Shown piece after piece: positions 52,922 through 57,152 of a DNA stretch of 64,000 nt. The translations under genes and the position numbers were made by a program. The notes under the pieces are model-generated. The model was not told the DNA's origin. It saw nothing but the letters and a program-made list of their open reading frames with translations, and did not search any database. Where the stretch lies: the NCBI GenBank assembly GCA_002718995.2, contig PBGL02000011.1, positions 1-64,000 on the forward strand. Reading direction: 5' to 3'. The DNA is from Methanobacteriota archaeon. GTDB lineage: Archaea; Thermoplasmatota; Poseidoniia; Poseidoniales; Thalassarchaeaceae. The first letter of the stretch is position 1, and each line of letters starts with the position of its first letter.

Positions 52922-53905
52922 TCAAGCCGAGGACAACCTGGAAAGACTTCCGATTATCCTCATTGGGAGCGCATCAAGCTGGACCAGGATCACTCTGGAT
53001 TCACCACTCTCCCTTACTAGTAAGGGACTCTCCCAATTTATTCGAAGCCCACCTTCCATGATTTCATCCACCCTGCCTACTCTGAATTGCATGTCCACAG
53101 ATGCATGAATGACATCACCGACCGAGAGCTCCCTCTTCTGAAATGGGGCCTTCGATAGTGATCCCATGGAGGAGGTGTGCGCCGTTACAGAGCTAGAACC
53201 CTTGTGAACGATAACACTCCCCTTCCCCAATACTCCTTCCTTCAGGCCTCTGAATGCTATTCCCACCCTGTCTCCCGAGTTAGCTTGCTCGACGTCCTCG
53301 TCCATCACTTGCAGACTCCTAACTATCGCGGAGTTTCCCCCTGGCAATTCCTCCACTTCGTCATGCTTGCGGATGACCCCCGATTGGACATACCCTATTC
53401 CAACAGTTCCAATTCCCTGTACGTTGAAGTGCTGGTCAAGAGGGACGATTAGGGAATTCTCGACTGAGCTTTCCATCGCCATCTCGAAGAGAGAATGTCT
53501 GATTTCGTGGGGTTCGGGACAATTCTCCAATATTTCCCAATTCAATCCCGCCTGGGGCAGCAGCATCTTCACCTGTTCTGGATCTACCCATCCACCTTCT
53601 TCCGGCTTGATTATGACAATTCCCCTTTCCACGCCGGCGCAGCCAAAAGCCACCAGGCACTCCCCGAGAGCAGCGTCAATTTTCGATACCTCGATTAGAC
53701 CGACCCTTGAAACGTTCAGAACCGAAAGAAGTGGCCTGATGCTATCTGGATGTTTCAGGGGCCTCAGGATTGATAGTACACGGGACTCATCGCCCACAGT
53801 TTCCTTGTGGACATACGAATCAACATCTCGTGAATCACCCTTCTTGGCAAGAGTACGAGCAAACTCATCGGTACCAACGAATCCGACGTTCAGTACCGAC
53901 ATCAT
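52922..53905 (-). CDS. EF-Tu/SelB-like protein with degenerate GTPase domain
   Basis: The 327-residue protein has an N-terminal region (SVLNVGFVGTDEFARTLAKKGD) where a translational GTPase would have its P-loop, but GxxxxGK[ST] is absent and the switch motifs are not visible. From about residue 160 the sequence (ENSLIVPLDQHFNVQGIGTVGIG, then the VGIAFRGL segment) resembles EF-Tu/SelB domains 2 and 3. Such degenerate relatives are known in archaea. GTP hydrolysis is unlikely; an RNA or elongation-factor-partner role is possible. It lies 21 bp downstream of the thioesterase gene. Confidence 0.75.
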   Translation of the reverse strand: MMSVLNVGFVGTDEFARTLAKKGDSRDVDSYVHKETVGDESRVLSILRPLKHPDSIRPLLSVLNVSRVGLIEVSKIDAALGECLVAFGCAGVERGIVIIKPEEGGWVDPEQVKMLLPQAGLNWEILENCPEPHEIRHSLFEMAMESSVENSLIVPLDQHFNVQGIGTVGIGYVQSGVIRKHDEVEELPGGNSAIVRSLQVMDEDVEQANSGDRVGIAFRGLKEGVLGKGSVIVHKGSSSVTAHTSSMGSLSKAPFQKRELSVGDVIHASVDMQFRVGRVDEIMEGGLRINWESPLLVRESGESRVILVQLDALPMRIIGSLSRLSSA

Positions 53906-54497: not shown

Positions 54498-55382
54498 ATG
54501 GTTCGTTTGGCACTGAGAATCCGGAACTGGCTCGCCGGCGGGCCGGTCCACACTTCTGAAACCATAACAGGGCCACCCACGAATGTCCCAGAACTCGGAT
54601 GGAGGGAGAAGACTCTCGACGATCCGGATGGGGGCAAGATAGTTTTGTGGCCACATCTTCCTTGTGTTAGGATGCCCCATGGCCTCAGGTCTAGGAGAGT
54701 GTGGGACGGAGTAGCATTCCTATTGAGTCATAACGATATTTCTATGATGAAGGAGGAGGAGAAACAGGACAGGGCTAGTCCAGGGGTTCACAATGAGGCT
54801 GCGATGGCCTCGGGGACCACCCTTGGCAGATTGGTTAGGGAACTAGAGGGACTGGATATTGAGGGGCCCAGGATCCCAGATCCCGAGCAGATCAGACATA
54901 TTCTCCATGCTGAGAATTCTCGGGGGGGACTCCCAGTTTTCCCCATAGAGCCCGACCTAGATGATGCCGAATGGTCAGATTGGCTAGAGCGCAGTGCCGA
55001 GAAGCAAGTCAATGTCGCAACTTTGCTATCCACGCTAACTCTTGGTAGGCGATGGTCTAGGAATTCATCATCAGCCATTTCCAAGATTCTCCCCGACAAG
55101 GAGGTCGGGGTCGATCTAGGTGCAGCTGCAGCGGCATGCGCAGCTTGGTGGTTAGAGGAGGAAGGGGTTCTTGGTGACTCCCTATACTCCGAGAGAGACT
55201 TGCGCTTCGCTTCTAGGATAAGGGGTGCCCTGGCCGACTTGAGGGACAGTAGGGTTGATGATGAGAAAGCACAGGAGCCCACACTGATGGTACCTGTTCA
55301 CCAAGCCAGACTCCCCTCAATCGAGGCCGCGATTTCCAGATGGCCAATGCCTGAGGCCCTCCAGAAGGAGGAACAGAAATGA
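54498..55382 (+). CDS. Unknown helical protein
   Basis: The 294-residue protein lacks a recognised domain. The N-terminal 90 residues are rich in Trp and Pro (NWLAGGPVHTSE, LVLWPHLP-like stretches). The middle is helical and acidic, and an Ala-rich region (VGLGAAAAACAAWWLEEEG-like) is followed by a regular helical end. It overlaps the next gene by 4 bp (ATGA). Together with the TBP-like and TatD-like genes it forms a three-gene unit, which hints at a shared function that I cannot identify. Confidence 0.7.
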   Translation: MVRLALRIRNWLAGGPVHTSETITGPPTNVPELGWREKTLDDPDGGKIVLWPHLPCVRMPHGLRSRRVWDGVAFLLSHNDISMMKEEEKQDRASPGVHNEAAMASGTTLGRLVRELEGLDIEGPRIPDPEQIRHILHAENSRGGLPVFPIEPDLDDAEWSDWLERSAEKQVNVATLLSTLTLGRRWSRNSSSAISKILPDKEVGVDLGAAAAACAAWWLEEEGVLGDSLYSERDLRFASRIRGALADLRDSRVDDEKAQEPTLMVPVHQARLPSIEAAISRWPMPEALQKEEQK

Positions 55383-55903
55383 CTAATTCTCCATCATTCG
55401 TAGTGGAGACCCAGACATTCAGATTCAGTCCAACTGCCCCTATTGATCTTGACGAGGCAGTATCGTTAGCCGGCGGTTCCAGGAGCGGGGATTATGTGGT
55501 AATCTCTCATGAGAAACCAAGGGCTACCTATGTGGTGGAGCCCGACGGATCAGTCCTTGTTCATGGTCTGGCGAGGGCAGAGGTGGCCGAGCTCGCTGTT
55601 CAAGAGCTACTGCTGACGCTGGGTCAAGCTATCGACGGTCTTTCAATGGAGTCAGGGGAGATGTTAGTTAGCTTTTCAATAGGGAGGGCGGTGATTGAAG
55701 ACATCGCAATCAGGAGATTTGAGGATGTTTCAAAGGACGAGAGGTTAGGGGCCCTCAGGATAGACGCCTCGTTACACAGATCTACATTGATCATTTACGA
55801 TAATGGAAGAGGAGTTGTGATCGGCCAGTCGTCCAGGAGAATAGCTGAGATGGCCGTCCGTCATTGGGTCGCACAGCTTGATGGAGAGGGAGCTTTGGCG
55901 TGA
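55379..55903 (+). CDS. TBP-like protein with two internal repeats
   Basis: The 174-residue protein contains two clearly related segments. Repeat 1 (residues about 48-85) is PRATYVVEPDGSVLVHGL then AEVAELAVQEL; repeat 2 (about 133-170) is HRSTLIIYDNGRGVVIGQ then RRIAEMAVRHW. The pattern RxT-hydrophobic pair-x3-G-x3-V-x-G followed by IAExAV matches the two direct repeats of the TATA-binding protein saddle, where each half has a strand turn and then a helix. Length is close to archaeal TBP (about 180). It lacks an obvious TBP stirrup Phe pair in the positions I can judge, so DNA binding is unproven. It is coupled to its upstream neighbour by a 4-bp overlap. Confidence 0.65.
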   Translation: MTNSPSFVVETQTFRFSPTAPIDLDEAVSLAGGSRSGDYVVISHEKPRATYVVEPDGSVLVHGLARAEVAELAVQELLLTLGQAIDGLSMESGEMLVSFSIGRAVIEDIAIRRFEDVSKDERLGALRIDASLHRSTLIIYDNGRGVVIGQSSRRIAEMAVRHWVAQLDGEGALA

Positions 55904-55907
55904 GAAA

Positions 55908-56789
55908 ATGCTGGAAAATGGCATTTGGACAGGGCCAATAATGGATCAACATATCCATTTAGATCGGAGCAACAGGTTCCTTAGCGCCATAGAGGAGTTT
56001 TCTCAATCCGGCGGAACGGCGATAATGCTTGTACACAAACCCGGGTTCTCAGGGCAACTGCCATTAGACCTGGATGGTTACAGAGATGCGTACTCACAAA
56101 CCGTCTCAATGGCGGAAGTGGTCAGGAAAAAGACCGGGATAGAGGTAGGAGTGACCCTTGGCCCCCACCCAGTTGTTTGGGACTTACAAGCCAACCAAAT
56201 GGGCGTAAAGAAGTCAACCGAGTTACATATCGAGGCTGTGGGATTGGCCTTGGACATGATTGAATCCGGCACGGCTTCTTGTCTTGGAGAGGTCGGCCGT
56301 CCACACTATCAGGTCGATAACGAGAGATGGGGCCATGCAAACGAGGTTCTTCAGGAGGTAATGTCAATGGCCGCAGTCGAAAAAGTACCAATACAGCTCC
56401 ATGTTGAGGACAGGGGCAAGGAAACTTGCAGAGAACTAGCTGAAATGTGCGATTCCGCGGGCCTTCCAAGGTCAAATGCAATCAGACATTTCTCTCCTGC
56501 TGACATAAGCACGGAATTCACTAGTGGCCTCTCTTCAACCGTCAACATGGGAAAGGGGAGTGTGACTGGACTGGTAGAGACTATTTCCAAATCGGACTCC
56601 AAGTGGGGGATGGAGACAGACTTCCTGGATGATCCGAATAGGCCCGGTGCAGTACTGGGGCCCAAGACCGTCCCAAAGAGGACCCAGAGGCTATGCTCAG
56701 CATTGCTCGAATCGGGTTGGGAAGAGGATGATGTAGTCGCCCTATTACTAAACATCCACGAGGTATGGCCGAAGCAGCTGTACAGTTGA
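55908..56789 (+). CDS. TatD-like metal-dependent hydrolase
   Basis: The protein has about 293 residues from the ATG at 55908. MDQHIHLDRSNRF holds the HxH metal site; VTLGPHPVVWDL, CLGEVGRPHYQV (metal Glu), PIQLHVEDRG (metal His), AIRHFSPADIST (His) and METDFLDDPNRP (final Asp) complete the TIM-barrel amidohydrolase/TatD pattern. TatD relatives are nucleases or phosphotriesterase-like enzymes. The substrate is unknown. It starts 4 bp after the TBP-like gene. Confidence 0.85.
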   Translation: MLENGIWTGPIMDQHIHLDRSNRFLSAIEEFSQSGGTAIMLVHKPGFSGQLPLDLDGYRDAYSQTVSMAEVVRKKTGIEVGVTLGPHPVVWDLQANQMGVKKSTELHIEAVGLALDMIESGTASCLGEVGRPHYQVDNERWGHANEVLQEVMSMAAVEKVPIQLHVEDRGKETCRELAEMCDSAGLPRSNAIRHFSPADISTEFTSGLSSTVNMGKGSVTGLVETISKSDSKWGMETDFLDDPNRPGAVLGPKTVPKRTQRLCSALLESGWEEDDVVALLLNIHEVWPKQLYS

Positions 56790-57077: not shown

Positions 57078-57152
57078 GCGCCTGTAGTGAAGGGGTTATC
57101 ACAAGAGGTTTCCAACCTCTTGTCCCGGGTTCAAATCCCGGCGGGCGCACCA
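57078..57152 (+). tRNA. tRNA-Gly (anticodon TCC)
   Basis: The acceptor GCGCCTG pairs with CGGGCGC, the anticodon stem AGAGG/CCTCT encloses the loop TTTCCAA (anticodon TCC), and CCGGGTTCAAATCCCGG forms the T arm. CCA is encoded. CGATTTAGAG about 30 nt upstream may be the TATA box. It reads GGA (and wobble GGG). With the two others, all three glycine tRNA anticodon classes lie in this window. Confidence 0.97.

Follow-up and report, generated by a model that had tools for sequence, protein, structure and literature searches.

The window (the whole stretch of DNA that was analysed, 64,000 nucleotides from an archaeon of the order Poseidoniales) encodes a genuine but repurposed TATA-binding protein (TBP), named here TBPL, which is an ancient single-copy paralog of a canonical TBP that has been retained. 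Judged from residue conservation, its promoter-binding equipment is largely gone, and its gene lies in an operon with those of an order-specific protein, N294, and of a hydrolase of the TatD family. This suggests that a core transcription factor has been recycled for another job. The regulator or enzyme-partner role that a first-pass annotation had put forward for this protein is plausible. Our own preferred reading, tentative and with a probability of roughly 0.4, is that this TBP has been recycled and now serves the TatD hydrolase system as its binding subunit, a function that we infer.

Few proteins of archaea and eukaryotes are as conserved as TBP and, to our knowledge, the known two-lobed TBP forms act in transcription. 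TBPL is a second TBP, nearly universal in an order that ranks among the commonest archaea of the plankton. With its DNA-bending face rewritten by invariant charged residues and its place in a hydrolase operon, it would show a general transcription factor leaving transcription. Furthermore, the recurrence of a TBP-TatD gene pair in Thermoplasmatota provides a testable lead on the function of archaeal TatD. Neither the fold nor the superfamily is new; the novel variant is a two-lobed TBP that has an acidified N-lobe and a fixed place in a hydrolase operon. A word search of the open literature returned no description of TBPL or of the TBP-TatD gene pair, and this pair is apparently undescribed so far. 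The key survey of TBP-domain evolution is reportedly that of Brindefalk et al. 2013.

Table 1. Features of the TBPL operon in the window (forward strand, window coordinates)
Feature	Position	Strand	Description
Conserved 14-nt element ACCGYTNNNNTSAA	54460..54473	+	25-38 nt ahead of the N294 start codon
N294	54498..55382	+	Order-specific; opens the operon; 4-nt overlap with TBPL
TBPL	55379..55903	+	Divergent two-lobed TATA-binding-protein homolog, 174 aa, ATG start
N-terminal TBP lobe, residues 6-85	55394..55633	+	E-H-E-E-E-E-H in the AlphaFold2 model; residue mapping
His62 codon	55562..55564	+	Position of yeast TBP Thr124; invariant in 33/33 orthologs
C-terminal TBP lobe, residues 88-170	55640..55888	+	PF00352 match 116-167; hhalign E about 1e-7 against either TBP lobe
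TatD-family metal-dependent hydrolase	55908..56789	+	PF01026, E 5.7e-21

TBPL is a two-lobed TATA-binding protein

The first-pass annotation had described an open reading frame of TBP size in which two internal segments align with each other and follow the period of TBP halves. The frame and its length are as described, the predicted structure matches archaeal TBP over its full length, and the internal alignment, which pairs RATYVVEPDGSVLVHGLARAEVAELAVQELLLTL with RSTLIIYDNGRGVVIGQSSRRIAEMAVRHWVAQL, was borne out. Indeed, the two halves reach a local score of 45 against a mean of 25.2 for shuffled sequences (sd 4.5; score reached by 3 of 2000 shuffles), and the profiles of the halves match each other with an E value of 1.2e-4. 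The repeat is clear at the pairwise level in some orthologs only (median Z 1.1; Z >3 in 25 of 83).

Taken alone, the protein of the window matches the Pfam TBP family with an E value of 1.7e-4 and 21.8 bits, 1.1 bits below the cut-off of 22.9, and the PDB sequences that it resembles are TBPs without exception. A profile built from 33 orthologs finds significant matches in the PDB to TBPs only (best E 2.3e-10). PF00352 matches all 33 members of the family (best E 1.2e-11), several of which exceed the cut-off and several of which are matched in both lobes. In a profile-profile comparison (hhalign), TBPL aligns with 18 Thermoplasmatota TBPs over 173 columns (E 8.9e-8).

The AlphaFold2 model, based on 20 sequences (pLDDT 92.7, pTM 0.78), is a two-fold pseudo-symmetric saddle with the helices on its convex side and the element order E-H-E-E-E-E-H in each half. 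The saddle that the annotation had anticipated is thus what the prediction gives. When the model is compared with the PDB by Foldseek, the top 44 matches are TBPs or TBP-containing chains (best TM 0.88, Pyrococcus woesei TBP, 1ais), after which TM drops to about 0.3-0.4. A domain of the RNase HIII or DNA-glycosylase type, suggested earlier for comparison, was rejected: DUF3378 is matched by one of the 33 members (E 0.27), no such domain occurs among the top 50 folds, and TBPL is nearest to TBP itself. On the strength of the profile, profile-profile and fold searches, a chance or non-TBP similarity was rejected, and the identity of TBPL as a TBP homolog is firm. Neither of the outcomes that the annotation had named as refuting its interpretation, a model other than a saddle or a lack of significant profile matches, came about.

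A changed DNA-binding face

Residues were mapped on yeast TBP by gapless alignments of the strands; the saddle positions considered are the DNA contacts of TBP-TATA structures and, for L5.1, follow PMC7221094. At the intercalating Phe position of the N-lobe (L5.1, yeast F116), all 33 orthologs carry Asp or Glu (Glu54 in the window), and all 33 carry His at the position of Thr124 (His62). The position of Thr73 is occupied by Arg in 31 of them and that of Gln68 by Glu in 32. At the intercalating position of the C-lobe (yeast F207), Phe, Trp or Tyr is found in 33/33 (Tyr140 in the window), and a basic residue occupies the K211 position in 26/33. The aromatic residue at L5.1 is a near-universal nucleic-acid signature of TBP lobes (PMC7221094), which TBPL breaks in its N-lobe and retains in its C-lobe.

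Both Phe-Pro pairs of the stirrups (yeast F99 and F190) have been lost. The first stirrup is deleted or shortened, whereas the second carries Leu-Gly in a DERLG motif that replaces EPEQFPG and in which the first acid, D120, is nearly invariant and the second varies. Judged by the marks of a canonical TBP, that is an intercalating Phe and a stirrup Phe-Pro in both lobes, TBPL is not one. Conservation is higher at the concave positions of the N-lobe (mean entropy 1.12 bits) than elsewhere in TBPL (1.71 bits), indicating that selection for a new role acts on this face. The mean pI is 5.9 for TBPL and 4.6 for the canonical TBPs of Poseidoniales.

An operon with N294 and a TatD hydrolase

The annotation had also reported the coupling of TBPL to a 294-residue protein and to a TatD-like hydrolase. 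This coupling, through a 4-nt overlap with the former reading frame and across a 4-nt gap to the latter, is real and recurrent. The order N294-TBPL-TatD, on one strand, is found at all loci examined in both families of Poseidoniales. At all 86 loci with measured gaps the coupling is tight, each neighbour lying almost always within about 10 nt and never beyond 80 nt: the gap before TBPL ranges from -4 to +14 nt (one of 40), and that after it from -4 to +9 nt in most loci and up to 80.

N294 has no match in Pfam or the PDB, which led to the rejection of a known family or a TFB-like protein, and its real matches come from Poseidoniales only. Its model is mostly helical and of low confidence (pLDDT 43.6). 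In the hydrolase, the metal-site residues D13, H15, H17, E128, H165, H194 and D238 are invariant among 27 sequences, and the metal ligands are nearly invariant in 41 homologs from the phylum too.

In the window, a protein with an EF-Tu domain 2 (PF03144) is encoded at 52922-53905 (-); towards the N-terminus it looks like a translational GTPase, but no P-loop can be recognised, and it is possibly an inactive GTPase homolog. A tRNA-Gly (tcc) gene lies downstream of the TatD gene, at 57078-57152 (+). In the other family of Poseidoniales, a gene for a membrane or surface protein with the conserved tail EEIQGYFDQGW..ALRDWV directly precedes N294 (L079:3398-4498, -), so that the start of the operon differs between the two families.

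Of 47 unique upstream regions in the window's family, 40 contain the element ACCGYTNNNNTSAA ahead of the operon. Its possible functions are those of an operator or of a core promoter that gives a leaderless mRNA. The element occurs once within the 64-kb window and is absent from the other family, so that a general promoter reading is not supported. At one locus (L067:3046-3133), a 22-bp unit holding its GACCGCT part is present in four tandem copies.

Distribution of TBPL and the canonical TBP

TBPL lies, as the annotation had supposed, outside a known TBP: the canonical TBP of the same genome is a separate gene on another contig (C12:60141-60827), which rules out TBPL as the sole TBP of the genome. 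Related genomes likewise encode a canonical TBP apart from TBPL. The canonical TBPs of Poseidoniales retain all four Phe, with Phe-Pro-Gly stirrups and Met/Ile-Phe at the strand positions.

Of 60 relatives, 59 carry a single copy of TBPL, which in the phylum sample is present in 101 of 104 Poseidoniales genomes; the named relatives are Poseidoniales or Candidatus Thalassarchaeum. In two of the three genomes of the order without it, fragments of N294 or TatD lie at or near contig ends (G056, G326), and in the third the entire locus is missing (G276). These absences fit assembly gaps, and a true loss was rejected. Outside Poseidoniales, the TBPL profile retrieved from the phylum sample nothing but TBPs, with weak scores. 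The TBPLs of the two families share about 30-38% identity. In one single-contig genome (G037, locus L088), the TBPL match reaches only to about position 127-144 of the profile or of an ortholog, possibly owing to a frameshift, an altered C-terminus or a sequencing error.

TBP beside TatD in other Thermoplasmatota and the origin of TBPL

The TatD family was found in 88 of 97 Thermoplasmatota genomes. At 17 of the 40 TatD loci examined outside Poseidoniales, a TBP gene with the orientation of TatD lies no more than about 1.5 kb away and is usually adjacent or overlapping. Such pairs, with a canonical or a diverged TBP, include L165, L167, L169, L171, L176-L180, L190, L192, L198, L201 and L204. 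The TatD-linked TBP is canonical where it is the sole TBP found (e.g. G063, G133, G060, G080, G101 and G088), whereas in several lineages that have another, canonical TBP the linked copy is diverged (families f11, f12, f32 and f33). In some genomes with several TBPs, e.g. G128 and G083, the linked copy is nevertheless canonical, which indicates that divergence is not automatic.

In the linked TBPs of f11, the Phe of the N-lobe has been lost and His occupies the Thr124 position. In the tree, the linked copies of f11 are the nearest neighbours of TBPL (support 88/74), followed by those of f12. The TBPLs come together as a single clade (100/100), whose branch is very long (about 2 changes per site), so that its exact sister is unsure; given this branch and a support of 88/74, the grouping with f11 could be artefactual. 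The canonical TBPs of Poseidoniales and of the sister order fall together (97/88). The simplest account would be that an ancestral Thermoplasmatota TBP gene adjoined the TatD gene, that promoter recognition and general transcription passed to a second, canonical TBP, and that the TatD-linked copy, thus freed, specialised as TBPL.

Other diverged TBPs were observed in the phylum. In families f16 and f34, a canonical and a diverged TBP gene stand in tandem (L158-L161). A second, diverged TBP with partly altered stirrups occurs in the sister order, which belongs to the same class (L212-L214); none was seen beside TatD, and a canonical TBP is encoded elsewhere in the genome.

Proposed role of TBPL and rival explanations

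If TBPL is the subunit that does the binding in a TatD hydrolase system, it would use its C-lobe, with its aromatic residue, basic residue and hydrophobic contacts, to grip a nucleic-acid duplex or a structured strand. The concave, now invariant cluster of the N-lobe (Glu10, Arg15, Asp/Glu54 and His62) would contact a partner protein or the end of the substrate and present it to the active site of TatD, and N294 might be an assembly or regulatory subunit. The linkage to TatD has been kept while the determinants of transcription decayed, as expected if the partnership with TatD, and not promoter binding, is what has been conserved. TBPL is acidic on average, which disfavours nucleic-acid binding and speaks against this reading, but canonical TBP is more acidic still. 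In addition, gene neighbourhood can reflect co-regulation instead of a physical complex. A more far-reaching version, which we consider rather unlikely, holds that TBP and TatD are an ancient Thermoplasmatota pair and that in Poseidoniales this TBP became a dedicated non-transcriptional subunit of a nucleic-acid-processing complex, with a charged N-lobe possibly binding a ligand or assisting catalysis.

It is possible, but on balance doubtful, that TBPL is a protein-protein module only, whose saddle holds N294 and/or TatD (or TFB or TBP) and no nucleic acid. The nucleic-acid signature of the N-lobe has given way to Asp/Glu in all orthologs, the stirrups are truncated, and the strictly linked N294 is confined to the same order. 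Moreover, the C-terminal TBP-like domains of CPSF73 and CPSF100 serve as surfaces for nuclease assembly (PMC10688271). However, the C-lobe retains its aromatic residue, the frequent basic residue (26/33) and a V/I/L-x-S strand, and nucleic-acid duplexes are the ligands of most TBP lobes characterised so far (PMC7221094).

TBPL might also be an alternative promoter factor that recruits TFB and RNA polymerase at non-TATA promoters, possibly that of its own operon, where the conserved non-TATA element ACCGYTNNNNTSAA stands at the core-promoter position. The TFIIB family is represented by at least two genes in most Poseidoniales genomes (about four lobe matches), and acidic residues persist at the second stirrup, where TBP contacts TFB (D120 in DERLG versus EPEQFPG). 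We nevertheless regard this role as clearly unlikely. Of the four DNA-kinking Phe, three have been lost, and the residue at the N-lobe position is an acid in every case. The sister order equals or exceeds Poseidoniales in TFBs and lacks TBPL, the other family carries TBPL but not ACCGYTNNNNTSAA, and strict linkage to a hydrolase is not something that an ordinary regulator gene requires.

Very improbable is a function as an anti-TBP that titrates TFB or canonical TBP, TatD and N294 being merely co-transcribed: TBP homologs can dimerise and share surfaces, and the convex side of the fold has been kept, but neither the order-wide link to TatD and N294 nor the recurrent TBP-TatD adjacency in other Thermoplasmatota would be explained. 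Lastly, that TBPL comes from another helix-grip family and resembles TBP by convergence or chance is hardly credible, since against the sub-threshold Pfam score of the window protein alone the family profile, the profile-profile comparison and the fold comparison all single out TBP and refute it as far as computation can.

Comparison with known systems

Among known proteins, archaeal TBP (PF00352; P. woesei 1ais/1pcz) shares with TBPL the tandem lobes, an alignment over the full length, the order of strands and helices and a fold similarity of TM 0.88. TBPL differs from it by an identity of about 18%, by the loss of the stirrup Phe in both lobes, by the replacement of the N-lobe Phe by Asp/Glu and of Thr124 by His, by its coexistence with a canonical TBP and by its fixed operon with TatD and N294. 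The TatD-linked TBPs of other Thermoplasmatota (e.g. L190, L215-L217 and L179) lie, like TBPL, directly beside the same TatD family, and those of f11 have likewise lost the N-lobe Phe and gained His at the Thr124 position. Unlike TBPL, these proteins are less diverged (about 40 bits per lobe against PF00352), have stirrups that are mostly of full length, and are encoded without N294.

The metazoan TBPL1/TRF2 and TBPL2/TRF3 are also second TBP copies specialised after duplication. In metazoan TBPL1, Trp replaces the intercalating Phe of the N-lobe (PMC7221094). These paralogs have kept most TBP signatures and remain transcription factors, whereas in archaeal TBPL an acid replaces the intercalating residue and the gene is tied to a hydrolase operon.

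The TBP fold is also found in nucleases, where that of RNase HIII holds nucleic acid and those of CPSF73/100 hold a partner (PMC7221094, PMC4132731, PMC10688271). The TBP-like domains of RNase HIII, RnlA and CPSF73/CPSF100 are single lobes fused to the enzyme, whereas TBPL is a free, two-lobed protein encoded by a neighbouring gene and is nearest in sequence to TBP, not to these domains. As for the hydrolase, it belongs to a diverged archaeal branch whose profile matches TatD entries of the PDB weakly (best E 0.005), and it shares with the TatD family (PF01026) the complete set of metal ligands.
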